A stretch of 64,000 bases of DNA, taken from assembly GCA_009691105.1 (NCBI GenBank), contig SHVU01000008.1, forward strand, positions 1 through 64,000. Direction: 5' to 3'. The notes under the pieces are model-generated. The model had not been told where the DNA came from and did no database searches. It saw only the letters and a program-made list of their open reading frames with translations. This document shows, in pieces, positions 47,338-61,065 of this stretch; the first letter of the stretch is position 1; each line of letters begins with the position of its first letter. This stretch comes from Rhodospirillales bacterium. GTDB lineage: Bacteria; Pseudomonadota; Alphaproteobacteria; Rhodospirillales; SHVU01. Both the position numbers and the translations under genes were made by a program.

Positions 47338-48498
47338 CTAGGGCTGACTGAGCTCGCGCCAGACCGTGTAGTTCTCGCGGAAAGCCACCAAGGAATCCCA
47401 AACCTTCTTAAAATCGGGATCGGCCGCTGCTTCGTCGGCGGCGACTTTGGTCCAGGTGGTTTCCAAAGAGCTCAGGATGCGCGACGGCCAGCGTTGGACC
47501 TGAACGCCGCGCTGCGTGAGTTCCTTGAGCACCGGATACTGAAGCGCTTCGCCTTCGGCGAGACCGTAGCTGATGTTGTCGCCGCAGGCCGATTCGAGCT
47601 GCGCCTGACGGAGAGGGCTCAAGGCCTCCCAGCGCGGCCGGTGAATGATCAAGCTCAGGATCGTGACCGGCTGGTGCCAGCCGGGAAGGTAATAGAAATA
47701 GCGGCCGGTCTTGCCGAGGCCGAGATTCGCGTCGACCGCGGGCTGCGAGAACTCGGCGGCATCGAGAGCGCCGGCTTCCAGCGCCGCAAAAATATCGCCG
47801 CCCGTGAACGGCAAATTGATGACGCCGAATTTGGCGAGAAGTTTCCCCGACAGTCCGCTGGCCCGCATGCGCAGGCCCTTCAAATCGTCGACGGAGCGGA
47901 TGTCCTTACGGAACCATCCTGACGCCGAGGCCGCGGCCACGCCGCAGATCATGCCGTAGACGCTTTGGCGTTCGAACAGTTCCTGGGCGATGTCGCGGCC
48001 GCCGCCGAAATAGAGCCACGCCACGTGCTCCACCGCTCCCGGGCCGAACTGGATGGCCCCGAGCAATTCCAGCGCCGGAGCGCGATCGGCGAAGGCATCG
48101 GCGGTAAGAAACGCCGAATCGAGGACGCCGCCGCGAACGGCGTCGACGAGTTCTCCGACCGGTACCGGTCCACCCGGCCCGCGCATCCGGATCTCAAAGC
48201 TTCCGCCCGTAGTTCGGTTGAGTTCGTCTTCGAGGCGCTTCGGCAACGTTCAGAGCTGCGGGACCTTGGCGGCAAACGCACCGCCCATGGTCCAGGTGAC
48301 TTTCGCTTACACATCGCCAGGGCGTCCGACGAACAGCGATCGTAACGTATCGGTTTGACTGCGCGGCTCCGCGGCCGGCGCGGGCTGCACCGGGTTGGCA
48401 CGCTGAAGATTCGGAGCGACCACAGTCGTTCCGAACGCGACGCCGAGGACCAGCCCGATGACGACACCGACAATGGCGTGGCGCATGTATACAATCAT
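47338..48498 (-). pseudogene. TRAP-type substrate-binding protein, interrupted by two in-frame stops
   Basis: One lower-strand frame of about 386 codons. It begins near 48498 with a membrane or signal segment (MRHAIVGVVIGLVLGVAFGT). After GRPGDV comes TAA (48307-48309), then AKVTWTMGGAFAAKVPQL, TGA (48250-48252), and TLPKRLEDELNRTTGGSFEI onward to a normal end. The DctP-like body is intact: GVAAASASGWFRKDIRSVDD, LKGLRMRASG and FAALEAGALDAAEFSQP. In relatives Gly is usual at the second stop (PQLGTL), so GGA changed to TGA is plausible. No membrane subunits are nearby, so it is an orphan receptor. Confidence 0.85.
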
Positions 48499-48625: not shown

Positions 48626-49828
48626 GTGAACAACGAAACACGGGCTCGATGGACCGACATCCTGGTGGTGGTCGGTGGCGGCGTTCTGGGCGGCCTTCAC
48701 TTCGGCAAGACCGGGCCGGTACTCCCGGCGTTGCGCGCCGAATACGACCTCGACTTGGTGGCAGCCGGTTGGGCGGTGTCGCTCTTCGCCGGGGTCGCCG
48801 TGCTGTTCGGCATGGTGGCGGGCGCCGTCGGCGATCGAATCGGACATCGTCGCCTGGCCTTGGCCGGGCTCGGCGCCTTCGCGCTGGGCAGCTTGATCGG
48901 TGGCTTCGCGCCAACCCGTTCCATCTTCTTTGCGAGCCGCTTGGTCGAAGGCTTCGGCTATCTCCTGTTCATGGTCACCGGTCCGTCGTTGATCGTCCCC
49001 AACGCGTTCGGCAACGATCGGCGTCTGGCTCTGGGACTATGGGCGGGCAGCGTTCCCACCGGCATCGCCTTCGTGGCCCTTGTCGCGCCCAGCGTCGCAG
49101 CAGCGGTCGGTTGGCAGGTCGTGTGGCATGCCGCGACGCTCGCGACCGTGGCGTGGCTCGTGTGGGTTGCTTCGCGGCCGGCGCTACGTATTCCGACCGC
49201 CTCCGGAGCGGCAGCAGAGCCAATGACGCGTGGCCTGATCGCAACCGTTTCATCGCTCGGACCGTGGTTGGTCGCGGGCGCGTTCTTCTTGAATCTCGTC
49301 ATCTGGATTCCGCTGGCGTCGTGGCTGCCGAGCATCCTGATCGAAGTCCACGCCGTCGACGCTGCCTGGGCGGCGATTCTGACCGCGATCGTTGTGTTCG
49401 TGAACGCGCCGGGCAACGTTCTCGGCGGCTGGTTGATGTATCGCGGCATGGCGCCGTCGCGAGTCATCATGCTTGCCGGCATTGTCATGGGCGTGACCGG
49501 CGTCGGCATGTGCCTGCCGGAGCTTCCCGGCACGGTCCGTTACGCGCTCTGCGTCGTTTTCTCGTTCATGGGCGGAGCTCTGCCGGCGGCGGTCTTCGCC
49601 TTGGCGCCGGTGGTGGCGCCCAGCCCGCGCGATCTCGGTTCGACGACGGGCTTCCTCATCCAAGGCGCGAATCTCGGCCTGTTCGTCGGCCCGCCATTGA
49701 TCGGATGGATCGCGCTGACGTCGGGGGCCTGGGAAGGCGCGCTATGGCCGATCGTCGTCGTCACCGCCGCGATCGTAGTGCTCGGCTGGCGGGTCGGCGC
49801 CGAAGAACGGCGCGCCCGGCCAGCGTGA
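48626..49828 (+). CDS. MFS transporter (CynX/NimT-like group)
   Basis: A 400-residue permease with about twelve membrane segments. The loop 2-3 motif is GAVGDRIGHRRLALAGL. GTG start at 48626 with GAGGGGAA upstream. The closest visible relative in the window is the second MFS protein at 53978-55195, with matching VTGPSLIV/VAAPSLIV and GHRRL/GHRRI segments. Substrate unknown; the position next to the decarboxylases suggests an amino acid, amine or cyanate-like compound. Confidence 0.87.
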   Translation: MNNETRARWTDILVVVGGGVLGGLHFGKTGPVLPALRAEYDLDLVAAGWAVSLFAGVAVLFGMVAGAVGDRIGHRRLALAGLGAFALGSLIGGFAPTRSIFFASRLVEGFGYLLFMVTGPSLIVPNAFGNDRRLALGLWAGSVPTGIAFVALVAPSVAAAVGWQVVWHAATLATVAWLVWVASRPALRIPTASGAAAEPMTRGLIATVSSLGPWLVAGAFFLNLVIWIPLASWLPSILIEVHAVDAAWAAILTAIVVFVNAPGNVLGGWLMYRGMAPSRVIMLAGIVMGVTGVGMCLPELPGTVRYALCVVFSFMGGALPAAVFALAPVVAPSPRDLGSTTGFLIQGANLGLFVGPPLIGWIALTSGAWEGALWPIVVVTAAIVVLGWRVGAEERRARPA

Positions 49829-49854
49829 CCGGGAGGCCGTAATCGACGGATCGT

Positions 49855-51309
49855 TTAGTAGCGCGAGCTGACCTTCGACTTGATGGCTTGAGACTTGGCG
49901 AGAAGGCGGGGCGGAACGCGGAAGCGCCGCATCACGTCGCCTACCGTCTCGCGCTCGGACACGACCTCGGCGTTCTTGCCTGAGACCAAGATCGCCGCCG
50001 GCATGCATTGTGCGTTGAAGCGGCCGGCCACCGATTCCTGATAGCCACCGGCATCCAGGAAGGCTAGTAAGTCGTCGCGGTTAAGCTTCGGCAGCTTGCG
50101 CTTCACGCCGAGTTCGTCGGACGAGCACAACGGCCCGACCACGTCGACGACATCGGTGCCCTTTGCCGTCGCCCGGTTGGCGACGACGATGGGGAAGTAC
50201 CAATGGGCGAAATTGACGTGGGGCAGGAAGTTCGAGCTCATGTCGACGTTGACCCAGGTCTTCGTCGGATGGCGCTTGATCGAGCCGACGCGGCCGAGCG
50301 CAATACCCATGTTGCCCGACAGCGAACGGCCCGGCTCCATTTTCAGCGTCGGCAAGGTGAGCTTGCGCTTGGCGCATTCTTCCTTGATGGCGCGACATAC
50401 GGCCTTGGCATATTCCTCGAACGTCGCGGCGCTCTCGTCGTCGGCGCCGGCCGGCCCGGTGCCGCCCTTACGGCCGAACGTCCAGCCGCCGCCGATGTCG
50501 ATCGCTTCCGGCGTGAAGCCGGTGCGGTCGCGAACCTTCGCCGTCCATTCGATCATCTCGCGAGCCATGATCGCGAAGTCGCGGGCCTCGTTGCCCATGC
50601 GGCTCAGGTGATAGTGCAGCTCGGTCAGGCGCAGGCCATTCATCTTGGCGATGCGTTTGACGAGGATGCAAGTCTCATCGATCGTCATGCCCCACTTATG
50701 GGACAAGGCCTGCTCCTGCATGCTGCCGTCGCCGTGCATCGCAGCCCCGAAGCGCTTTTTCAGCGGGTTCAGGATGAGTTTCACGCGAATGCCGAGTTCG
50801 ACGTCGGTCGCGCCCATGCGCTTGGCGACCCGATCGATGCGATCGAGTTCGTCCATGGCGTCGATGTTGATGCAGACGCCGTTGGCAATGGCGAGTTCGA
50901 GTTCCTCGTCGCCCTTGTTCGAGCCGTTGAGCACCGTCTTCTTCGGATCGGCCCCGGCCAGAAGCGCGAAGTAGAGTTCGTTGTAGCCGAAGGCATCGCC
51001 GCCGGCGCCTTCCTGATTCATGATGTGGCGGATGGCGAGGCCGTTGTTGCTCTTATTCGCGAAGAGCACTTCGACCTTCGGGTATTCGGCTTCCCAGGCG
51101 TCGCGGAAACGCCGAAAGTTGTGGCGAAGTTGGTTTTCGCTCCACACGTAGAGCGGCGTGCCAAATTTCTTGGCCAGTTCGACGGTGTCGACGCCGTCGA
51201 CCCAGAGATGTCCGTTCGCCCCGATGCCAATGAACTCGGAAAAGTGAGTCTTGAACTTGGGGTAGGCGAGCGGCTCGTCGTTCCGCACGCTTCGTTTGGC
51301 GGCGTTCAT
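49855..51309 (-). CDS. PLP-dependent fold-III decarboxylase (LysA-like), copy 2
   Basis: A 484-residue protein of the ornithine/diaminopimelate decarboxylase family. The PLP Lys is Lys86 in FANKSNNGLAI. HYHLSRMGNEA, IDIGGGWTFGRKGG (phosphate site), MEPGRSLSG and the interface Cys in LCSSDELG are family sites. About two thirds of residues match the neighbouring copy. A good AGGAG site precedes the ATG. The group decarboxylates basic or diamino acids; HYHLSR replaces HFHIGS of true LysA, so the substrate may differ. Confidence 0.88.
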   Translation of the reverse strand: MNAAKRSVRNDEPLAYPKFKTHFSEFIGIGANGHLWVDGVDTVELAKKFGTPLYVWSENQLRHNFRRFRDAWEAEYPKVEVLFANKSNNGLAIRHIMNQEGAGGDAFGYNELYFALLAGADPKKTVLNGSNKGDEELELAIANGVCINIDAMDELDRIDRVAKRMGATDVELGIRVKLILNPLKKRFGAAMHGDGSMQEQALSHKWGMTIDETCILVKRIAKMNGLRLTELHYHLSRMGNEARDFAIMAREMIEWTAKVRDRTGFTPEAIDIGGGWTFGRKGGTGPAGADDESAATFEEYAKAVCRAIKEECAKRKLTLPTLKMEPGRSLSGNMGIALGRVGSIKRHPTKTWVNVDMSSNFLPHVNFAHWYFPIVVANRATAKGTDVVDVVGPLCSSDELGVKRKLPKLNRDDLLAFLDAGGYQESVAGRFNAQCMPAAILVSGKNAEVVSERETVGDVMRRFRVPPRLLAKSQAIKSKVSSRY

Positions 51310-51337
51310 GGGCGTTCTCCTGATGGGCGTTAAAGGG

Positions 51338-51368
51338 CCGGGGCCGGCCCATTGCTGGCCGGCCCCGG
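51338..51368 (-). terminator. GC-rich hairpin between the two decarboxylase genes
   Basis: CCGGGGCCGGCC (51338-51349) pairs with GGCCGGCCCCGG (51357-51368), 12 bp with a 7-nt loop. It lies after the stop of the upstream decarboxylase and before the start of the downstream one. It has no T-run, so it may stabilise the upstream message or partly end transcription. Confidence 0.55.
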
Positions 51369-51383
51369 AATATTTCGTCGGAC

Positions 51384-52823
51384 TTAGAAGTAACCTTTAA
51401 CCCGCATGTCCTGCGATTCCGCCAGAAGCCGCGGCGGAACGCGGAAGCGGCGCATGACGTCGAGCGTCGTCTCGCGCTCGCTGACGATGTCGGCACGGTC
51501 GCCGCTCACCAAGACAGCGGCCGGCAGGCATTGCGCGTTGTAGCGCGAGGCGCTGCTCTCCTGATATCCGCCGACGTCGAGGAAGGCGATCAGATCGCCG
51601 CGCTTGACCTTCGGCAGCTTGCGGTGCGGGCCGAGTTCGTCGGAATTGCAGAGCGGCCCGACGACGTCGACTAGATCGGTCCCTTTGCCGTCGGCGTTGC
51701 CGGCGACGACGCAGGGGAAGTACCAACTCGCGAATGCCGTCCACGGCAGGTGGTTGGAGCTCATGTCGAGGTTGACCCAGGTCTTGGTCGGGTGACGCTT
51801 GATCGCGCCGACCCGGCCGACCGCGACGCCAATCGAACCCGAGATCGAACGGCCTGGTTCCATCTTGAGCGTCGGGAGCTTCAGTTTTTGGTTCCGGGCT
51901 TCGTCTTTAACGGCCTTGCAGACCTCGCGGGCATAGTCCTCGTACGTCGCCGCGCTCTCGTCGTCGACGCCGGCCGGGCCGGTGCCGCCCTTACGGCCGA
52001 AGCTCCAGCCGCCGCCGATGTCGATGGCTTCTGGCGTGAAGCCGGTCTTGTCGCGAACCTTCGCCGTCCACAGCACCATTTCGCGGGCCATGATCGCAAA
52101 GTCGGAGGCTTTGTTGTCCATCCGGCTCAGATGATAGTGAAGCTCGCGCAGCTTCATGTTCTTCATCTTGGCGATGCGTTTGACGAGTTCGCAAGTCTCG
52201 TTGAGGGTCATGCCCCACTTGTGGGACGCGGCCTGTTCCTGAAGGCTTCCCGGACCGTGCATCGAGACGCCGAAGCGCTTCTTGAGCGGATCGAGCGCCA
52301 GTTTGACGCGGATGCCGAGGTCGACTTCCTCGACGCGAAGGCGCTTGGCGATCTTGTCGATCAGGTCGATCTCGTCCATGGCATCGATGTTGATGCAGAC
52401 GCCGTTGGCGATGGCGAGCTCGAGTTCTTCTTCGCCCTTGTTCGAACCGTTGAGCACCGTCTTCTTTGGATCGGCGCCGGCCAGAAGCGCGAAATACAAT
52501 TCATTGTAACCGAAGGCATCGCCGCCGGCGCCTTCCTGATTCATGATGTGGCGGATGGCGAGGCCGTTATTGCTCTTGTTGGCGAAGAGCACATGCACGT
52601 CATCGTAATGGCGTTGCCACGCGTCGCGGAAGCGACGGTAGTTGTGCCGCAGTTGGCCTTCGCTCCAGATATAGAGCGGCGTCCCGAACTGGTTGGCGAG
52701 ATCAACGGTGTCGCAGCCGTCGACCCAGAGATGCCCGTTCGAGCCGATGCCGATGAATTCGGAGAAGCTCTTCTTGAATTTCGGATAGCGAAGCTTGGTC
52801 TCCGGGCGTCGTGAGGCGTTCAT
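51384..52823 (-). CDS. PLP-dependent fold-III decarboxylase (LysA-like), copy 1
   Basis: A 479-residue paralogue of the adjacent gene. PLP Lys83 is in FANKSNN, the phosphate site is IDIGGGWSFGRKGG, and MEPGRSISG, LCNSDELG and GGYQES are present. The ATG at 52823 follows AGGAGAACTTTC. In this family the active site is built at a dimer interface, with the Cys and Tyr coming from the partner subunit. Two paralogues in one operon could therefore form a mixed dimer, which is an inference. It follows the DapA-family gene. Confidence 0.88.
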   Translation of the reverse strand: MNASRRPETKLRYPKFKKSFSEFIGIGSNGHLWVDGCDTVDLANQFGTPLYIWSEGQLRHNYRRFRDAWQRHYDDVHVLFANKSNNGLAIRHIMNQEGAGGDAFGYNELYFALLAGADPKKTVLNGSNKGEEELELAIANGVCINIDAMDEIDLIDKIAKRLRVEEVDLGIRVKLALDPLKKRFGVSMHGPGSLQEQAASHKWGMTLNETCELVKRIAKMKNMKLRELHYHLSRMDNKASDFAIMAREMVLWTAKVRDKTGFTPEAIDIGGGWSFGRKGGTGPAGVDDESAATYEDYAREVCKAVKDEARNQKLKLPTLKMEPGRSISGSIGVAVGRVGAIKRHPTKTWVNLDMSSNHLPWTAFASWYFPCVVAGNADGKGTDLVDVVGPLCNSDELGPHRKLPKVKRGDLIAFLDVGGYQESSASRYNAQCLPAAVLVSGDRADIVSERETTLDVMRRFRVPPRLLAESQDMRVKGYF

Positions 52824-52863
52824 GAAAGTTCTCCTGTTGAGGGTCTGAGGGGTAAAGCGGAAC

Positions 52864-52888
52864 CGCCGACCGCGTAGCGCGGTCGGCG
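52864..52888 (-). terminator. GC-rich hairpin after the DapA-family gene
   Basis: CGCCGACCGCG (52864-52874) pairs perfectly with CGCGGTCGGCG (52878-52888) across a 3-nt loop. It lies between the DapA-family stop and the decarboxylase start. It may limit readthrough or protect the upstream message. Confidence 0.55.
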
Positions 52889-52900
52889 TGGGTCCGAAGA

Positions 52901-53827
52901 TTATTCGGCGGCGGCGGCGACTTTGCGAACGCCGAGCTCGGCCAGGCCTTGCTTGATTTGGGACACGTGTGGCTCGCCGAGAAGCGTCAACGGCCGCCGC
53001 GGGAATCCGCCGGGCAGGCCGAGGATGTTCATGGCCGTCTTCACCGACGTGTAATAGTTGCGGCCGTTCGTGCTCATCAACTCGCTCAGTTGCAGCGCCC
53101 GCTTCTGAACGCGCTGAACCGTCGCTTGATCGCCGCTTTTGACGATTTCGCAGAATTGATGGGCTTCGGCTTCGGGCCAGAAGTTCGGGAAGGCTTCGAC
53201 GTAGCCGGGGCTTCCGACTTCGATCGCCGCCATGCCGAAGAGCCCGGCCGGGCCGCAGAAGACCCGCAGGCGATCGCCGGCGACCAAGATGGTCTTGTAG
53301 AAGATGTTGAAGTCCATCGAGCTTTCTTTGATGGCGACGACGCACTCGATATTGGCGAGGCGGTCGACCAGCTCGGGCGTCAGCGGCGTCTGGTTATAGG
53401 ACGGGATGTTGTAGAGCATGATCGGGAACTTCACCGCGTCCGAGATCGTCTCGTAGTGCGCGATGATGTCGGCGGTTGAGGGCTTCACGAAATACGGCGG
53501 CATGATCATGGCGCCGGCGCAGCCCGAGTCCTTGGCCGAGGTCGTCAGCTCGATCACGTCTTGCGTGCGAATCGTCCCGGTGCCGGCGATCACATTGATG
53601 CGGCCGCGGGAGACCTCGACGGCGACTTTGAAGAGGCGCTTGCGCTCTTCCATCGACAGCGCCCAGAACTCGCCGGTGCAACCCGAAACGACAACGCCGG
53701 TCGCACCAAGGCCGATCTGATTTTCGATGTGCGTGCGGAACTTGGCTTCGTCGATGTTGCCTTTGGCGTCGAAGGGGGTCACGATGGCCGGCATCGAGCC
53801 CCGCCAATCGACTGAATTCTTATCCAT
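52901..53827 (-). CDS. DapA-family aldolase/lyase
   Basis: 308 residues from the ATG at 53827. It is a (beta/alpha)8 enzyme of the dihydrodipicolinate synthase/N-acetylneuraminate lyase family. The Schiff-base Lys is Lys167 (VVAIKESS), the proton-relay Tyr is Tyr139 (MLYNIPSY) and the pyruvate-binding GTTGE is here GCTGE. These enzymes join or split pyruvate from aldehydes, so the reaction is not fixed by sequence. It is the first gene of a leftward set with the two decarboxylases; an MFS gene diverges from it. Confidence 0.87.
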   Translation of the reverse strand: MDKNSVDWRGSMPAIVTPFDAKGNIDEAKFRTHIENQIGLGATGVVVSGCTGEFWALSMEERKRLFKVAVEVSRGRINVIAGTGTIRTQDVIELTTSAKDSGCAGAMIMPPYFVKPSTADIIAHYETISDAVKFPIMLYNIPSYNQTPLTPELVDRLANIECVVAIKESSMDFNIFYKTILVAGDRLRVFCGPAGLFGMAAIEVGSPGYVEAFPNFWPEAEAHQFCEIVKSGDQATVQRVQKRALQLSELMSTNGRNYYTSVKTAMNILGLPGGFPRRPLTLLGEPHVSQIKQGLAELGVRKVAAAAE

Positions 53828-53977
53828 GTGCGAACGTTCCTTCCTGCAAAAACTTTTGGCTGGTCGCCAGATTTCGGCGCGGGCGATCTCTGCGATTAGT
53901 ATGCCGTCGGCCCCTGGGCGGTGCAACCGCCTTCCGGGTCATGCCTCCTTGATTCCGCGACGATTCCGCGGCGTTTC

Positions 53978-55195
53978 GTGAAAACACCGACAGCGGACGA
54001 CGGCCAGCCAACGCGCTGGAGCCAGGTGCTGATCGCGATCGGCGCCGGCATGGTGACGGCCTTTCACGTCGGCAAGTTGCCGCCGGCTTTGCCCCTCGTT
54101 CGCGACGAGCTCGATATCAGTCTAGTCGTCGGCGGCTGGGTGGTGTCGATCTTCGCGGCCACCGGCATGTGCCTCGGATTGGTCGCCGGTTCCTTCGCCG
54201 ATCGCGTCGGCCATCGGCGCATTGTCGTCACCGGCTTGATCGCGCTGGCGATCGGTAGTTTCGCCGGCAGCTTTGCTCCGGATGGCGTGACGCTTCTGAT
54301 CACCCGCTTCATCGAAGGCATCGGCTTTCTCGCCGTCGGCGTCGCGGCGCCGTCGCTGATCGTGGCCGCGGCGCGCGGTCCGAACCGCGGCTTAGCGCTC
54401 GGGATGTGGAGTTGCTACATGCCGGCGAGCATGGCGCTGATGCTCATCGTCTCGCCGCCGATTCTCGCCGCCTACGATTGGCGCGTCCTGTGGCAAGGCG
54501 CCGCCGTCGTGTCGTTGATCTGGTGTGTCGTCGTGGCTTTCGCTCCGATGGCGCCGCGGCCGACCGGACCGGGAACCCAAACGTCGTTCGGCGAGAACGT
54601 CCGTATGACTTTGTCACGCCCAGGTCCCTGGCTTCTGGCCCTGACGTTCCCGCTCTACACGTCGCAATGGATGGCGTTGATGGTGTGGCTGCCGACGTTC
54701 CTGGTCGAGGAGCGTTCGGCCGGTATCGGTTCGGCGGCCGGGCTTACGGCCTTGGTGGTCGCGGTCAATATCATCGGCAATCTGACGTCGGGTTGGTTGA
54801 TGCGGTCCGGCGCGCGCCATTGGGCGCTGATCGCGACCGCGTCTACGGTCATGGGGCTTTCGGCCGCAGGAATCTTCTCCTCGGGCGTTCCCGACGAATT
54901 ACGTTTCATTCTCTGCCTGATCTTTTCTGGCGTCGGTGGAATGTTGCCGGCGGCGGTCCTCGGCGGTGCTCCGGTCATGGCGCCCACCCAAGCTCAGGTC
55001 GGCACCGTCAACGGCCTGATCATGCAGGGCTCGAACCTCGGCCAGTTTCTCGGGCCCCCCGTCGCCGCCCTGGCGGTGGCCACGACCGGCTCCTGGGGCG
55101 CGGCTGGTGTCGTCATGGTCGGATGCTTTGCGGTCGCCATCGGCTTGGCCTTGGCCATCCGTCACATCGAGACGCGCCTGTCAACCCGGCATTAA
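53978..55195 (+). CDS. MFS transporter, paralogue of the 48.6-kb carrier
   Basis: About 405 residues from the GTG at 53978 (an in-frame GTG at 53921 is the alternative), chosen by alignment with the other MFS gene. About twelve membrane segments; SFADRVGHRRIVVTGL is the loop 2-3 motif. The protein is recognisably related to the first MFS carrier along its length. The two carriers flank the decarboxylase and DapA-family genes, which suggests uptake and export, or two substrates, of one pathway. Confidence 0.83.
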   Translation: MKTPTADDGQPTRWSQVLIAIGAGMVTAFHVGKLPPALPLVRDELDISLVVGGWVVSIFAATGMCLGLVAGSFADRVGHRRIVVTGLIALAIGSFAGSFAPDGVTLLITRFIEGIGFLAVGVAAPSLIVAAARGPNRGLALGMWSCYMPASMALMLIVSPPILAAYDWRVLWQGAAVVSLIWCVVVAFAPMAPRPTGPGTQTSFGENVRMTLSRPGPWLLALTFPLYTSQWMALMVWLPTFLVEERSAGIGSAAGLTALVVAVNIIGNLTSGWLMRSGARHWALIATASTVMGLSAAGIFSSGVPDELRFILCLIFSGVGGMLPAAVLGGAPVMAPTQAQVGTVNGLIMQGSNLGQFLGPPVAALAVATTGSWGAAGVVMVGCFAVAIGLALAIRHIETRLSTRH

Positions 55196-55454: not shown

Positions 55455-56150
55455 TCAGCCCAGGTGCTGACCTAGAAACTCGAGCGATCGCCGGTGGGCG
55501 AGTTCGGCGGCGGCCTTGTCGTAGTGCTTGCCGCCGACGCGGGCGAAAGCGTGATCGGTTCCGGGATAGTCATGGATCGTCACGGTCTTGTTGCCGTCGA
55601 GAACGGCATGGATTTCCCTCTGCTCGTCCTTCGGCACGAATTGATCGTCGGCCGCGACGTGCAGCAATAATGGTGCGGCGATCTTTTCCTTGAGATGGCT
55701 TTTGAGCGCGACACCGTAGTACCCGACCGCGGCATCGGTCTTGGTCCGCGCTGCCGTCAGAAACGCTAAACGTCCGCCGAGACAAAAGCCGATCGTTCCG
55801 ATTTTGCCGGTCGAGCCCTTGAAGGCGCGGAGCGAGTCGATGGACCGGCCGAGATCGGCGACGCCCTTGTCGACGTCGAAGCCGCCGAATAGCTCGAACG
55901 CCCGGGCCCATTCCTTGTCGGTCCGGTCGGTCAGTTGAATGCCGGGCTGCTGACGCCAGAACAAATCTGGGCACAGCGCCATGTATCCTTCCGACGCGAT
56001 CCAATCGGTGACGTCGCGCATCACCTGATTGACCCCGAAGATTTCCTGGATGACGACCACGCCTGGACCGCGGCCGGCGCGGGGCATGGAGAGATAGGCC
56101 ATGAATTCCTTGCCGCCTTCTGCCTTGATGCGAATTTCGGTGCCGGGCAT
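55455..56150 (-). CDS. Dienelactone hydrolase family protein
   Basis: 231 residues from the ATG at 56150, which follows GGAG. Alpha/beta hydrolase with a cysteine nucleophile: Cys123 in IGFCLGGRLA, the acid in AADDQFVP and His in GTDHAFAR. VVVIQEIFGVNQ and PDLFWRQQPG are typical. Members open lactones from chloroaromatic or furan breakdown or cleave esters. Substrate not determinable here. Normal length. Confidence 0.9.
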   Translation of the reverse strand: MPGTEIRIKAEGGKEFMAYLSMPRAGRGPGVVVIQEIFGVNQVMRDVTDWIASEGYMALCPDLFWRQQPGIQLTDRTDKEWARAFELFGGFDVDKGVADLGRSIDSLRAFKGSTGKIGTIGFCLGGRLAFLTAARTKTDAAVGYYGVALKSHLKEKIAAPLLLHVAADDQFVPKDEQREIHAVLDGNKTVTIHDYPGTDHAFARVGGKHYDKAAAELAHRRSLEFLGQHLG

Positions 56151-56202
56151 CGCGGGTCTCCTGTGATCGGCGGCCGGATGGCGGTCGCCATCCGCGATCG
56201 TA

Positions 56203-57106
56203 TCACAGGCGCGCTGGAGCTCGCGGCAGGAAGAGGACGAGGCCGAGCGCGGCGCTGACGCCGAGCATGGCCGTGGCTTGGCGCCAGCCGAAGGGTTCGT
56301 CGAGGAAGATCGTCGCACCGGCGACGCTGATCATCGGCAGCATCAGCGTGCCGATCGACGACACCGACACCGGCAATAACGAGACTAGCGTGAACCAGCC
56401 GTAGTTGCCGAAGGCCAGAACGACGAACACGTTGCAGGCGATGCCGATCATCATGGGGATCGACTGCCACTGAAGGTCGGCCATATCGACGAAGGGTGCG
56501 ACCAGCGTCATCGGCAGGCAGCCGATCAGGAGTTGCCATCCGGCCAGCGCCAACGTCGACGTCTTCCAGATGACGCGTTTGAAAAGAAGCGTGCCGATGG
56601 CCCAAGCGACAGCGGCGCCCAAGATGAAGGCGATGCCGATGGGCGCGTTGCCGAGCGAGCCGAAATCTTCGCTGATCAGGACGACGATGCCGCCGATGCC
56701 GAGCGCCAAGGCCAAGGCGACCCGTTTATCGAACGGTTCCTTGAAGACGACGATGGATAACACCGTCGCCCAGACCGGCATGGTGTAGCCAAGCAAGACG
56801 GTTTTGCCGGCTGGCAGGTACAGAAGGCTGTAGGTTCTGCCGACGTACCAGCAGGTGATGTTGAGGAACGTTGAGGCCGCAAACGCCAGACAGTTCTCGC
56901 GCGGGATGCGCAGAGAATGTCCGGACAGCTTGGCGATCAACCAGTAGCACCGTTGCCTCCAAGGGGCAGGTGAGGCCGCGCAGCGTCAGCGGCGGCATTT
57001 CTTACAGCAGAGCCTTGATGATCGGCCAGTTGCTGCCCCAGGCGAGCGTAACGCCCGCCAACAACAGAAGGCCGAGCCGCGACAGCGGCGCGGGCTGTGC
57101 ATTCAT
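56203..57106 (-). pseudogene. EamA/DMT-family transporter, disrupted
   Basis: The lower strand starts MNAQPAPLSRLGLLLLAGVT at 57106 and continues LAWGSNWPIIKALL to TAA at 57002-57004 (codon 35). It goes on with EMPPLTLRGLTCP, then changes frame near a CCCC run at 56963-56966. The remaining frame (IAKLSGHSLRIPRENCLAF to LGLVLFLPRAPARL, ending 56203) is the rest of a ten-helix drug/metabolite transporter. The residue expected at the TAA is probably Ser (TCA). It follows the TRAP operon on the same strand. Confidence 0.8.
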
Positions 57107-57127: not shown

Positions 57128-58414
57128 TTAGCGAATGAACCCGGCGGCTCGCGGCAGATACAGGCTCAGCTCCGGGATGTAGGTCACGAGGACGAGGACC
57201 ACCACCATGGAGATGAAGGGCCAGAACAGCTTTCGCGAGAGCTGCAAGAGGGTACGTTGGCCGACGACCGAGACCACGAATAGACAGGCTCCGATCGGCG
57301 GTGTGATCAAACCGATCACCAAGTTGAACACCATGACGAGAGAGAAATGGATCGGGTCGATCCCAAAGCTCTGGGCGATGGGAATAAGGACCGGACTGAG
57401 GACGAGGATGTAAACGATGCTCTCGCCGAAGCAGCCCAAAATCAAGAAGACGATGTTGATCAGGAGCATGAACGTCCAGCCCTGAGACACCGTGGCGCGG
57501 ATCCATTCCGACATTAGAGCCGGCACGTCGGCGACTGCCATCAGGTAGCCGAAGATATTGCCAACGCCGACGAGGGCGAGAAGGCCGCAGCTGATACCTC
57601 CGGCCTTCAGGAAGATCCGCGGCAGCTGATGGAACTTCAGATCCTTGTAGATGAAGAGCCCGACCACCAAGCCGTACCACGCGGCGATCGCCGACGCCTC
57701 GGTCGGCGTGACGAAGCCGCCGAGGATGCCGACCAGAATGATGACCGCCATCCCAATCGCCGGAATCGCATTCCAGAAAGTGATCGCCAGTCTCTTGACG
57801 CTGAAGGGAACGGGATCTTGATAGGCCGGCCCGCCACGCTTGGCGTGTAAGTAGGCGACAAGCGAGAGCGCCGGCACGGTCAACATCCCCGGCAGGACGC
57901 CCGCCAGAAACAGCGCCCCGATAGAAAGATCGTTGGCGACGCCGATGATGACCATCATCAGGCTGGGCGGAATGATCTGAGCGTGGCTGCCGGCCGTGGC
58001 AATGACGCCGAGCGCAAAGTCGATGTCGTACTTCCGCTTTTTCAACTCCGGGGTCAGGATCGAGGCAATGGCCGCGGTGTCGGCGGTGCCCGAACCCGAC
58101 ATCGCCGCTAAGCCCGTTGCGGCAAAGATCGCAACCTGCAGCAGGCTGCCCGTCATCCAGCCGATCATCGCGATGCAGAGCTCGACGATGCGCCGCGAGA
58201 TGCCGGCGGCATCCATGATGAAGCCGGCCAGGATGAAGAATGGCACCGCCATGATCGGGAACGAGTTCATTCCCGCGTAGTAGCGGTGCGCGATTAGCGC
58301 GAGCGGCAGATCGGTCGTGAACAGCAGCATGAAGGCTGCCGCAAGCCCGAGCACGAAGATGATCGGGAAGCCGAGCGCGATGGCCGTGAGAAGTGTGACG
58401 ATCGCGACGATCAT
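57128..58414 (-). CDS. dctM: TRAP transporter large permease subunit
   Basis: A 428-residue protein with about twelve membrane segments: VTLLTAIALGFPIIFVLGLA at the start, GMNSFPIMAVPFFILAGFIM, and GFVTPTEASAIAAWYGLVVG, the motif of DctM-type subunits. It couples sodium gradients to uptake of organic acids. It overlaps the small subunit by 4 nt. Confidence 0.94.
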   Translation of the reverse strand: MIVAIVTLLTAIALGFPIIFVLGLAAAFMLLFTTDLPLALIAHRYYAGMNSFPIMAVPFFILAGFIMDAAGISRRIVELCIAMIGWMTGSLLQVAIFAATGLAAMSGSGTADTAAIASILTPELKKRKYDIDFALGVIATAGSHAQIIPPSLMMVIIGVANDLSIGALFLAGVLPGMLTVPALSLVAYLHAKRGGPAYQDPVPFSVKRLAITFWNAIPAIGMAVIILVGILGGFVTPTEASAIAAWYGLVVGLFIYKDLKFHQLPRIFLKAGGISCGLLALVGVGNIFGYLMAVADVPALMSEWIRATVSQGWTFMLLINIVFLILGCFGESIVYILVLSPVLIPIAQSFGIDPIHFSLVMVFNLVIGLITPPIGACLFVVSVVGQRTLLQLSRKLFWPFISMVVVLVLVTYIPELSLYLPRAAGFIR

Positions 58415-58938
58415 GTGCCTTCTCCCAAATCGCCTCCCATGCCTTCATTCCCGAAAGGCGCGTCCCAGTGTTCGATGGCGTGCAAGATGACTTCGAAGGC
58501 GAAATAGACGCTACCAACCGGGATCACCCCGTAGATGATCCACATTGGAATCATCATTGTCGGCGAGGTTTGGAAGAACCCGGCCTCGACCAGAATAGAG
58601 CCGCCGTAAACCATGAGCCCTTGAAACAGCACGCTCAGCGCGGTGATCGCGACCTTTAGAACGCGCGCGTACAGCAGCGGCAACATTGCCGGAAGCGACT
58701 CGATGGCGAAGACGGTTCCGCGACGCATGGCAAGACCGGCGCCAAGAAAGCCCATCCACACCTGCGCGAACGTCGCGAGCTCGGTGAAATCGGCGATATT
58801 GAAGTGCACGATATAGCGGCCGAGAACTTGCAATCCGACCGCGACCAGCATGAACACGAAGCAAACAGTGATCAGTGTGGTCGCCACGCTTCGAATGCCG
58901 TCGACGGTTCGTCGAGCGGCTATGGTTATGGCAGACAT
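58411..58938 (-). CDS. dctQ: TRAP transporter small permease subunit
   Basis: 175 residues with four hydrophobic segments (LITVCFVFMLVAVGLQVLGR is the first) and the family motif FTELATFAQVWMGFLGAGLA. DctQ stabilises the large subunit and joins the complex. ATG at 58938 follows the dctP gene with a strong hairpin between. Confidence 0.92.
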   Translation of the reverse strand: MSAITIAARRTVDGIRSVATTLITVCFVFMLVAVGLQVLGRYIVHFNIADFTELATFAQVWMGFLGAGLAMRRGTVFAIESLPAMLPLLYARVLKVAITALSVLFQGLMVYGGSILVEAGFFQTSPTMMIPMWIIYGVIPVGSVYFAFEVILHAIEHWDAPFGNEGMGGDLGEGT

Positions 58939-58975
58939 TATGTTGGGCTCCCCGGCCTGACTGGATCCCCAGAAA

Positions 58976-59020
58976 CCGCGCCGGCCGGGTGGAGGGAAAA
59001 CTCCAACCCGGCCGGCGCGG
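58976..59020 (-). terminator. Very GC-rich hairpin between dctP and dctQ
   Basis: CCGCGCCGGCCGGGT (58976-58990) pairs perfectly with ACCCGGCCGGCGCGG (59006-59020), 15 bp, with a short inner helix possible. Located just after the binding-protein stop. Such a structure can protect the message and raise the binding protein above the membrane subunits. Confidence 0.6.
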
Positions 59021-59039
59021 CAACCTCAGATATCTGAGC

Positions 59040-60014
59040 CTATTTCGTGTCCTGAATGATCTTCAGCATTTCCTTTTCGGCGTCGGTCTTGAGGAACTGG
59101 TCATAGACCTTCTTTGACGCGTCGATAAAGGGCTGCCGTTCCGGCCGAGTCACTTTCACGTTTTGAGCGACGAGCAATTTGAGCTTCTCGTCGTCCTCGG
59201 TCAGAAAGGCGGTGTTCTGCAATTTGCAAGCGGCATCGCCGGCGACCCCGACGGCCTTTTTCTGAGACGGGGTGAAGCTCTGATAGGTCTTCTCCGACAT
59301 GATCAGAGTGTTGGTGAACACCAGCCACTGGATGATCGCCCAGTTCGGGGCCACTTCGTAGAACTTCTGTTCGTAATAGTTAGAGTTCGCGGCGTCCGCT
59401 CCGTCAACGACTCCGGTCTGCAGCGAGCTGTAGACTTCGGGATAGGCAATGGCGGCGGCGTTGGCGCCCATAGCGTTGAAGGTGGCGACATGGACCGGAT
59501 TTTCGATGGCCCGGATCTTGAGGCCCTTCATGTCGGCGATCGTATTGATCGGCTTTTTCGACATGATGTTTCGGATGCCGGTGGTCATGGCGCAGACGAA
59601 GCGGATGCCTTTCTTTGCGGACGCGGCTTCCATCTTCTCCTTGAGCGGTCCTTGCCAGACCTTCTCGAAGTGCGGCAGATCGCGAAAGACGAACGGCATG
59701 TTGGCGATATTGAGTTCCGGTACCCAGTTCGCAAGCACGGCTGAGGCCGGATGGGCCGCGCCGACCGTTCCGATGAGAATGCCTTCGATTTCGTCGCGCT
59801 CGCCGCCAAGTTGCTTGTTGGGGAAGAGCTTTACCGTAATTTCGCCCTTGGTCTCCGCTTTGAGCGTGTCGGCAAAGAGCAGCGCCAATCGATGGTTGAC
59901 GTGCTGCTCGCTCGATTGGTGCGCGTACTTCAATTCCACCGCCTGGCCGGGTGTGGCGAGGGCGAGGACGAGAGTCCCGGCAAGGCCGAGACAGAGTCCG
60001 TAGCTATGAGTCAT
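59040..60014 (-). CDS. dctP: TRAP transporter solute-binding protein
   Basis: About 324 residues from the ATG at 60014, which has GGAGGAGAC upstream. The signal peptide (LCLGLAGTLVLALATPGQA) is followed by VELKYAHQSSEQHVNHRLAL. It has the DctP landmarks FPNKQLGGERDEIEGILIGT, MKGLKIRAIENPVHVATF and SSLQTGVVDGADA, including the Arg that binds carboxylates. It brings an organic acid to DctQM. The ligand may be a substrate of the neighbouring lyase. Confidence 0.93.
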   Translation of the reverse strand: MTHSYGLCLGLAGTLVLALATPGQAVELKYAHQSSEQHVNHRLALLFADTLKAETKGEITVKLFPNKQLGGERDEIEGILIGTVGAAHPASAVLANWVPELNIANMPFVFRDLPHFEKVWQGPLKEKMEAASAKKGIRFVCAMTTGIRNIMSKKPINTIADMKGLKIRAIENPVHVATFNAMGANAAAIAYPEVYSSLQTGVVDGADAANSNYYEQKFYEVAPNWAIIQWLVFTNTLIMSEKTYQSFTPSQKKAVGVAGDAACKLQNTAFLTEDDEKLKLLVAQNVKVTRPERQPFIDASKKVYDQFLKTDAEKEMLKIIQDTK

Positions 60015-60066
60015 GACGTCTCCTCCATTTACCTTATTGTCGTTGTGACGAATTGGCGCGGCCTGC

Positions 60067-60957
60067 CTAGGCCGCCTTCTTGGCGAGCACACCGAGGTCT
60101 TCAAGAACGCTACGCAGACCGGGAATCTTCGACGCCGGCAACGGCAGGCGCGGCATGCGGGGCGGACCCATCGAACGTCCGATCAAATCCATCGCGGCCT
60201 TCGTGCCCGACACGTACAGATCGCCGTCGATCTGACCCATGATCGGCTGGAGGCGGTTGTAGATTTCCCGGCCGCCTTCTGGATCGTTCTCGGTCACAGT
60301 CTTGCGATACGCCGCGGCCGACAGCGCCGGGGCGACGTTGCCGCACACCGAAACCCAACCCTTGGCGCCGAGACGCCACGCTTCGTAGCGGGCGAAGACG
60401 ATCATCTTGTCGGGACCGACGAGACGATGAATGTCGCGGACGCGTGTTTGATCGCCGCTTGCTTCCTTGATGTAGCGAACGTTGTCGAGCTGCGAGAGCC
60501 GCGCCACGAGAGGCGGCTTGATGTCGACGTTGGCGATCCGGGTGTTGTTGTAGAGCATGATCGGAATCGAGATCGCGTCCGAGATGGCGCGGAAATGCGC
60601 GAACAGTTCGTCGTCGGTCGGCGAACTGTAATAGGGCTGGATGACCATGACGCCATCGGCGCCGAGCTTCTCGGCTTCGCGGCTGTAGCGAACGGCCCGT
60701 TCGGTCCATTCGTGTGCGGTGCCGGCGATCACGGGGACCCGGCCCTTGGCTTGGTCGACGACGGCGTCGATCACTTGGGCGCGCTCTTCGTCGTTGACCG
60801 ACAGCCATTCGCCGGTCGAGCCGAGCGGGATCAAGCCGGGTACGCCTTCTTCGATCTGCCAATCGACGTGGCGACGCAGTGCTTTCTCATCGATCCGCTT
60901 GCCGTCTTCAGTGAACGGCGTGCAGATGACGGTGAATGCTCCTTCGAAATGGGCCAT
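60067..60957 (-). CDS. DapA-family lyase of the TRAP operon
   Basis: 296 residues from the ATG at 60957, 7 nt after GGAGG; the ATG at 60963 is too near that site. Schiff-base Lys164 (RYIKEASG), Tyr136 (MLYNNTRI) and GSTGEW identify the dihydrodipicolinate synthase/N-acetylneuraminate lyase fold. It is a distant relative of the lyase at 52.9-53.8 kb. It sits first in an operon with dctP, dctQ, dctM and an EamA remnant, so it probably acts on the imported acid. Confidence 0.88.
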   Translation of the reverse strand: MAHFEGAFTVICTPFTEDGKRIDEKALRRHVDWQIEEGVPGLIPLGSTGEWLSVNDEERAQVIDAVVDQAKGRVPVIAGTAHEWTERAVRYSREAEKLGADGVMVIQPYYSSPTDDELFAHFRAISDAISIPIMLYNNTRIANVDIKPPLVARLSQLDNVRYIKEASGDQTRVRDIHRLVGPDKMIVFARYEAWRLGAKGWVSVCGNVAPALSAAAYRKTVTENDPEGGREIYNRLQPIMGQIDGDLYVSGTKAAMDLIGRSMGPPRMPRLPLPASKIPGLRSVLEDLGVLAKKAA

Positions 60958-61065
60958 GCCCATACCTCCATATACTGATCGTCTTCGGACTAGGTTGTGC
61001 CGACGATATCCCTGAGTCGCGGACCGCACAACGCCCGTTTCGGCAGGCGTCGTGCGATGTTGCGG

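Follow-up and report, generated by a model that had tools for sequence, protein, structure and literature searches.

A duplicated LysA-derived decarboxylase and a DapA-like lyase, probably for the breakdown of an amino compound, in a Rhodospirillales bacterium

The decarboxylase and lyase genes

A 64-kb stretch of contig SHVU01000008.1 (the window) from a Rhodospirillales bacterium was explored computationally, from its sequence. It contains two genes for LysA-derived decarboxylases dependent on pyridoxal phosphate (PLP), DC1 and DC2, and one for a DapA-like lyase. These are flanked by two major facilitator superfamily (MFS) carriers. The set probably serves the breakdown of some amino compound. 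The order and strands of the five genes had been given in the original prediction as MFS, decarboxylase, decarboxylase, DapA-like, MFS, and they are borne out by the open reading frames and by Pfam. Each decarboxylase consists of an Orn_Arg_deC_N and an Orn_DAP_Arg_deC domain. The genes and the gaps between them are as follows.

48626..49828, + strand: MFS1 carrier (MFS_1, E = 1e-32), 40% identical to MFS2; convergent with the decarboxylase genes and located downstream of them
49855..51309, - strand: DC1, LysA-derived PLP decarboxylase (Orn_Arg_deC_N, 2.8e-32); specificity helix NFLPHVNFAHW
51310..51383, - strand: gap between DC2 and DC1; hairpin with a minimum free energy (MFE) of -31.9 kcal/mol (z -2.3); Shine-Dalgarno site AGGAG for DC1
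51384..52823, - strand: DC2, LysA-derived PLP decarboxylase (Pfam, 8.1e-31); specificity helix NHLPWTAFASW
52824..52900, - strand: gap between the DapA-like gene and DC2; hairpin with an MFE of -29.6 kcal/mol (z -3.6; 52824-52903 folded); Shine-Dalgarno site AGGAG for DC2
52901..53827, - strand: DapA-like lyase of the DHDPS family (DHDPS, E = 1.3e-67), of the GCTGEFWA / PPYF type
53921..55195 (start codon uncertain), + strand: MFS2 carrier (MFS_1, 3.9e-34); divergent from the DapA-like gene

The DapA-like gene, DC2, and DC1 are co-directional. The gaps between them are about 75 bases long, and each contains a strong hairpin along with a good Shine-Dalgarno site. The two hairpins are dissimilar and might give rise to different transcript levels.

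The decarboxylases were thought to be duplicates, and this is confirmed. Over 479 amino acids (aa), DC1 and DC2 share 76% identity, and they are sisters in the tree (support 100/100). They adjoin the decarboxylases of two related metagenome-assembled genomes (MAGs), ETNP2_MAG_87 (L016) and Arabian10_MAG_32 (L017), with support of 100/98. Both MAGs have the layout MFS-DapA-DC-MFS with one decarboxylase. Thus, the pair is a tandem duplication that postdates the split from the L016/L017 lineage. The doubling took place in this lineage, and the one-gene state works elsewhere. Pairwise nonsynonymous and synonymous divergence (dN 0.20, dS 0.67; dN/dS about 0.29) indicates that both copies have been kept by purifying selection.

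In this fold, active sites are located where the two subunits of the dimer meet (PMC7857480), and the original prediction suggested that the pair may make a mixed enzyme. Two adjacent, intact copies under purifying selection would suit an obligate heterodimer whose two composite active sites differ. The copies also differ on both sides of the site, in the helix (HVNFAH in DC1, WTAFAS in DC2) and in the residue after Cys392 (CSSDE in DC1, CNSDE in DC2). However, all catalytic residues are present in both copies, and neither is a degenerate partner. L016 and L017 have the same layout with a single decarboxylase, the canonical operons described below have one each, and each further paralogue of this genome is a lone copy on another contig. 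A mixed enzyme may form but need not be assumed, and an obligate heterodimer appears quite improbable.

The carriers had also been called duplicates. They are related (E = 6e-89 over 371 aa), but they have diverged far more deeply than the decarboxylases have. MFS2 is 56-58% identical to the upstream MFS protein of L016 and L017. These two loci have an MFS gene at the position of MFS1 as well, matched by place and not by ortholog assignment. The solved structures nearest to MFS2 by sequence are efflux pumps, as weak matches.

Further genes lie beyond MFS2, including those of a tripartite ATP-independent periplasmic (TRAP) importer.

55455..56318, - strand: dienelactone-hydrolase-family protein (DLH, 6e-52), at the same position in L017; part of the conserved neighbourhood
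57128..60104, - strand: TRAP importer DctM, DctQ, DctP (DctP, 9e-70); part of the conserved neighbourhood
60067..61029, - strand: second DHDPS-family gene, adjoining the TRAP importer (TIGR00674, 191.4 bits, under the cut-off); counterpart at L017:865-1764

The L017 neighbourhood extends as in the window, with the second DHDPS gene, the TRAP importer, the dienelactone-hydrolase protein, a DctP-like gene, and cytochrome c. The gene order DctP-DctQ-DctM-DLH-MFS is common to both. The DctP-like binding-protein gene of the window (47338-48490, - strand) has two in-frame stops, and its positional counterpart in L017 is intact (385 aa). The window copy is apparently decaying, unless the stops are assembly errors.

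Departure from LysA and DapA

DC1 and DC2 score 267.6 and 266.5 bits with the LysA profile NCBIfam TIGR01048, under its cut-off of 297.9 bits. The same genome has a true LysA on contig C30 (460.2 bits) with the motifs NDLIRPAMY and CETAD. The decarboxylases of the family keep K83, H231, EPGR (E322-R325), C392, and Y420, with few exceptions at EPGR. The substrate-binding Arg of LysA (RPAMY in the genome's own LysA) is replaced by Trp361 in DC2 and by His in DC1. The Glu after the catalytic Cys of LysA is gone, and the residue following Cys392 is Ser in DC1 and Asn in DC2. In this fold, substrate choice is set by the specificity helix and the catalytic-Cys loop. The helix Arg of diaminopimelate decarboxylase binds the distal carboxylate, and an acidic residue beside the Cys binds the side-chain amine (PMC7857480). 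With the Arg exchanged and the acidic residue lost, meso-diaminopimelate is a poor substrate candidate, and so, probably, are lysine and ornithine. Diaminopimelate, ornithine, lysine, and arginine had been put forward as compounds to try. By these residues all four are unlikely substrates of DC1 and DC2. The pocket for the distal part of the substrate appears rebuilt, which suggests for both enzymes an amino-acid substrate different from diaminopimelate. The AlphaFold model of DC2 (mean confidence, pLDDT, 90) has LysA of M. jannaschii (1twi) as its best fold match, with template-modelling (TM) scores of 0.83/0.92. A short helix at 360-365 corresponds in position to the specificity helix.

The DapA-like protein scores 206.4 bits with the DapA profile NCBIfam TIGR00674, which has a cut-off of 206.15 bits. 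The true DapA of the genome is encoded on contig C10 beside smpB (344 bits, motifs IPGRSV and PYYNKP). The profile match (PF00701), the Schiff-base Lys167, and the catalytic Tyr139 place the DapA-like protein in the DHDPS superfamily of pyruvate-type Schiff-base lyases; both residues are invariant in the alignment. The AlphaFold model (pLDDT 94) matches DHDPS-family folds with TM scores of 0.88-0.94. The equivalent of Arg138 is lost (a residue other than Arg in IPSYNQ/IPGNAV), and that of Tyr107 is Phe (PPYF). These two positions are numbered as in E. coli DapA. The dapA model accepts this non-DapA protein; relatives of the 52901-53827 protein are likely misnamed in databases.

Could these genes be spare lysine-pathway copies of LysA and DapA with their old function? 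The DapA-like protein exceeds the dapA cut-off, by 0.25 bit, and LysA is the nearest solved fold for the decarboxylases. Set against this are the decarboxylase scores under the lysA cut-off and the loss of the diagnostic Arg, Glu, Arg138, and Tyr107. Since the genome has a separate true LysA and a separate true DapA, the window genes are not housekeeping copies, and it is very improbable that they are spares.

Operons and paralogues in other genomes

The family was surveyed with one genome per species, and 46 loci were found. Genes in the fetched loci were called by a simple script, which placed some starts wrongly. The contig scan of genomes used exact short patterns, which miss distant copies. 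The loci are mostly from Alphaproteobacteria, with others from Gammaproteobacteria and from single MAGs of other phyla. In the plasmid collection, tblastn gave one distant match only (33%). The DapA-like gene adjoins the decarboxylase gene in 27 of 33 canonical loci; in Sphingomonas baiyangensis it is further down the same operon. An ortholog of the DapA-like protein (at least 60% identity) was present in 10 of 10 decarboxylase-bearing genomes searched. In a random sample of the class with few carriers, the decarboxylase occurred without that DapA subfamily in one genome (on a contig of 4.3 kb), and that DapA subfamily occurred without the decarboxylase in two. The DapA-like/decarboxylase pair is a conserved but sparse module. 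The lyase belongs with the decarboxylases, as had been supposed. The original prediction also knew of no described pathway with this set, and no such cluster or pathway was found in the literature searched.

The canonical operon encodes a sugar-type binding protein, two permeases, an ATPase, the DapA-like protein, one decarboxylase, and two short-chain dehydrogenases/reductases (SDRs). Added to these is a class-III aminotransferase or a flavoenzyme of the D-amino-acid oxidase (DAO) family with Fer2/BFD subunits. Such a flavoenzyme resembles opine or D-hydroxyproline dehydrogenase (PMC4575208). Canonical operons of Rhizobiaceae possess a dehydrogenase similar to succinate-semialdehyde dehydrogenase (SSADH), and an IclR regulator is present in part of the canonical operons. 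The importer and the dehydrogenases point to catabolism. The aminotransferase and the flavoenzyme were considered as exclusive stand-ins for each other (12 versus 16, one with both, p = 6e-5 by plain counts). With only three independent changes on the starred branches of the tree, and one locus (L104) having both, this exclusivity is suggestive.

Two further features were seen at these loci. In sphingomonads, the gene directly after the decarboxylase encodes a protein of 570 aa that probably has a signal peptide and matches no Pfam family (L060:9398-11107, L042:9392-11101). At L021, L024, and L104, the operon is flanked by genes that, judged by eye, resemble those of a GcvPA/GcvPB-like PLP decarboxylase and of an ATP-NAD kinase, even where the family's decarboxylase is missing.

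A biosynthetic role would run in the other direction. The DapA-like protein would condense pyruvate with an aldehyde, the decarboxylase would make an amine, and the MFS carriers would export the product, as in rhizoferrin-type siderophore clusters. Lysine synthesis likewise starts with DapA and ends with LysA. LysA-like enzymes of fold III, encoded with MFS genes, make siderophores (FslC/FigC; PMC7857480). There are weak matches to the FslC and FslD profiles, and the efflux-pump structures weakly matched by MFS2 would suit export. However, the canonical operons hold binding-protein importers and, in part, the SSADH-like enzyme. The FslC score is 60 bits against a cut-off of 500. No IucA/IucC (NIS) synthetase (PF04183) was found in the 85% complete genome, and the siderophore reading was rejected on this ground. 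Biosynthesis in general is considered unlikely.

This genome possesses five copies of the decarboxylase family and more than 20 DHDPS-family genes. The decarboxylase family was found in 5 of 60 related genomes, which are exactly the five richest in DHDPS-family genes (22, 29, and three with at least 32; the other genomes have a median of 2 and a maximum of 15). The five fall in three family groups, so the independent cases number about three. A smaller expansion, of 11-15 DHDPS-family genes, is present in three genomes of one family that lack the decarboxylase family (G010, G034, and G052, family f11). The paralogues of this genome have neighbours of their own. One on contig C42 (L078) lies by split transketolase genes, a DAO flavoenzyme, a DapA-like gene, a xylose-isomerase-like protein, and a class-IV aminotransferase of the D-amino-acid/branched-chain type. 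On contig C50 (L009, L077), three tandem DapA-like genes are divergent from a decarboxylase paralogue.

The specificity helix varies among non-canonical copies. In the 17 non-canonical decarboxylases compared, the most variable 11-residue stretch of the protein starts at 359 (entropy of 1.99 bits versus a mean of 1.02), and at position 361 there is Trp, His, Arg, Pro, or a deletion. The canonical clade, in contrast, shows conservation of residues 358-368 (0.44 versus 0.60). This variability fits copies that may act on different substrates.

A putative catabolic module and its relation to known systems

The evidence tips modestly toward a catabolic module, in which a duplicated, substrate-diversified amino-acid decarboxylase and a pyruvate-type lyase have been joined to new carriers. 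Gene identities, the duplication, the conserved pairing, the loss of LysA and DapA recognition residues, helix variability, and DHDPS co-expansion were computed. The catabolic direction, the order of steps, the homodimers, and different substrates for DC1 and DC2 are what we infer. MFS1 and MFS2, and probably also the neighbouring TRAP system, would bring an organic acid or an amino acid into the cell. DC1 and DC2 would be homodimeric PLP decarboxylases of alpha-amino acids that yield an amine. Two related substrates are most likely, given tandem duplicates with different specificity helices. Removal of the amine and oxidation of the aldehyde could be carried out by products of genes elsewhere in this genome. 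In other genomes, the aminotransferase or flavin amine dehydrogenase and the SSADH-like enzyme near the decarboxylase may do these steps. The DapA-like protein would then form a Schiff base with the 2-oxo acid of the pathway and cleave, dehydrate, or deaminate it, with pyruvate, a semialdehyde, or another central metabolite as the possible product.

Several points weigh against this module. Beside the window set, neither an aminotransferase nor an amine oxidase nor an aldehyde dehydrogenase was identified, which leaves the pathway incomplete at this locus, and no substrate or product was identified for the set. The assembly is fragmented and 85% complete, which limits such statements of absence. 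The carriers can export instead of import. The excess of helix divergence between DC1 and DC2 is not significant (6/19 versus 92/431, p = 0.27). Separate occurrence of the genes in relatives had been named as counter-evidence, and it was seen only in part, in one operon (G415, L104), which has the DapA-like gene and no decarboxylase inside. The decarboxylase is thus dispensable to that operon.

A narrower form of the catabolic module concerns sugar-like amino acids. The decarboxylase would act first, deamination would give a sugar-like aldehyde, the SDRs would oxidise it, and the DapA-like protein would take a 2-keto-3-deoxy acid. The sugar-type ATP-binding cassette importer, two SDRs, and SSADH-like enzyme of canonical operons agree with this route. 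So do an HpcH/HpaI-type aldolase near the decarboxylase in L018 and L019, the C42 paralogue near the transketolase genes and xylose-isomerase-like protein, and Trp361 in place of the LysA Arg. The route is drawn from genomic context, and the canonical operon has no sugar-acid dehydratase. It is rather unlikely in this specific form.

More broadly, it is possible, though doubtful, that a few sparse bacterial lineages remade LysA and DapA as a modular toolkit of paired enzymes. Each decarboxylase would have a rebuilt helix and its own DHDPS-family lyase, opening amino compounds of natural organic matter for which there is no known pathway. LysA and DapA are textbook enzymes, and proteins akin to them are routinely annotated as lysine synthesis; the ones described here clearly do not belong to it. 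Their genes keep company with each other and with importers, and among the relatives searched they are found in the genomes richest in DHDPS-family genes. Once the substrate is named, there would be one more catabolic pathway, and many annotations could be put right. Such operons are present in cultured Mesorhizobium, Martelella, Reyranella, and Sphingomonas, so these readings are testable now.

Among known systems, LysA (TIGR01048; 1twi) is the top structural and profile match for the decarboxylases and has the fold, PLP lysine, His, EPGR, and catalytic Cys in common with them. The decarboxylases differ in lacking the helix Arg/Tyr (RPAMY) and the Glu after Cys, in scoring under the cut-off, and in carrying an insertion, GRKGGTGPxG, after GGGW. 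DokD, a D-ornithine/D-lysine decarboxylase (NF052544), has the same fold and a similar length and acts on D-amino acids. The decarboxylases score about 160 bits against its cut-off of 700 and lack an acidic residue next to Cys392 that could bind a side-chain amine. FigC/FslC (N-citrylornithine decarboxylase) and SbnH are also LysA-like with an altered specificity helix, from which SbnH projects a Trp (PMC7857480). FigC is likewise clustered with an MFS gene. The low FslC score and the missing siderophore synthetase set the window enzymes apart from FigC/FslC.

Clusters for 4-hydroxyproline catabolism combine a D-amino-acid-oxidase family member, a DHDPS-family deaminase, and an aldehyde dehydrogenase (PMC4113996). 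Canonical loci likewise hold a DHDPS-family lyase and a transporter together with either a DAO/opine-dehydrogenase-like flavoenzyme or an aminotransferase; some of them also have an aldehyde dehydrogenase. Flavin oxidase, DHDPS-family protein, and aldehyde dehydrogenase all occur around canonical loci, never together in one fetched locus. The canonical loci differ in their extra LysA-like decarboxylase and two SDRs, and those of Rhizobiaceae have an aminotransferase where the 4-hydroxyproline clusters have a flavoenzyme. Partners of this type (flavoenzyme, aminotransferase, aldehyde dehydrogenase) were not identified beside the window set. Paralogue expansions in SAR202 serve marine organic matter (PMC6946804). 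The likeness is that a single genome carries a few catabolic enzyme families in numerous divergent copies; here, the families are DHDPS and LysA-like, and the genomes are those of Alphaproteobacteria.

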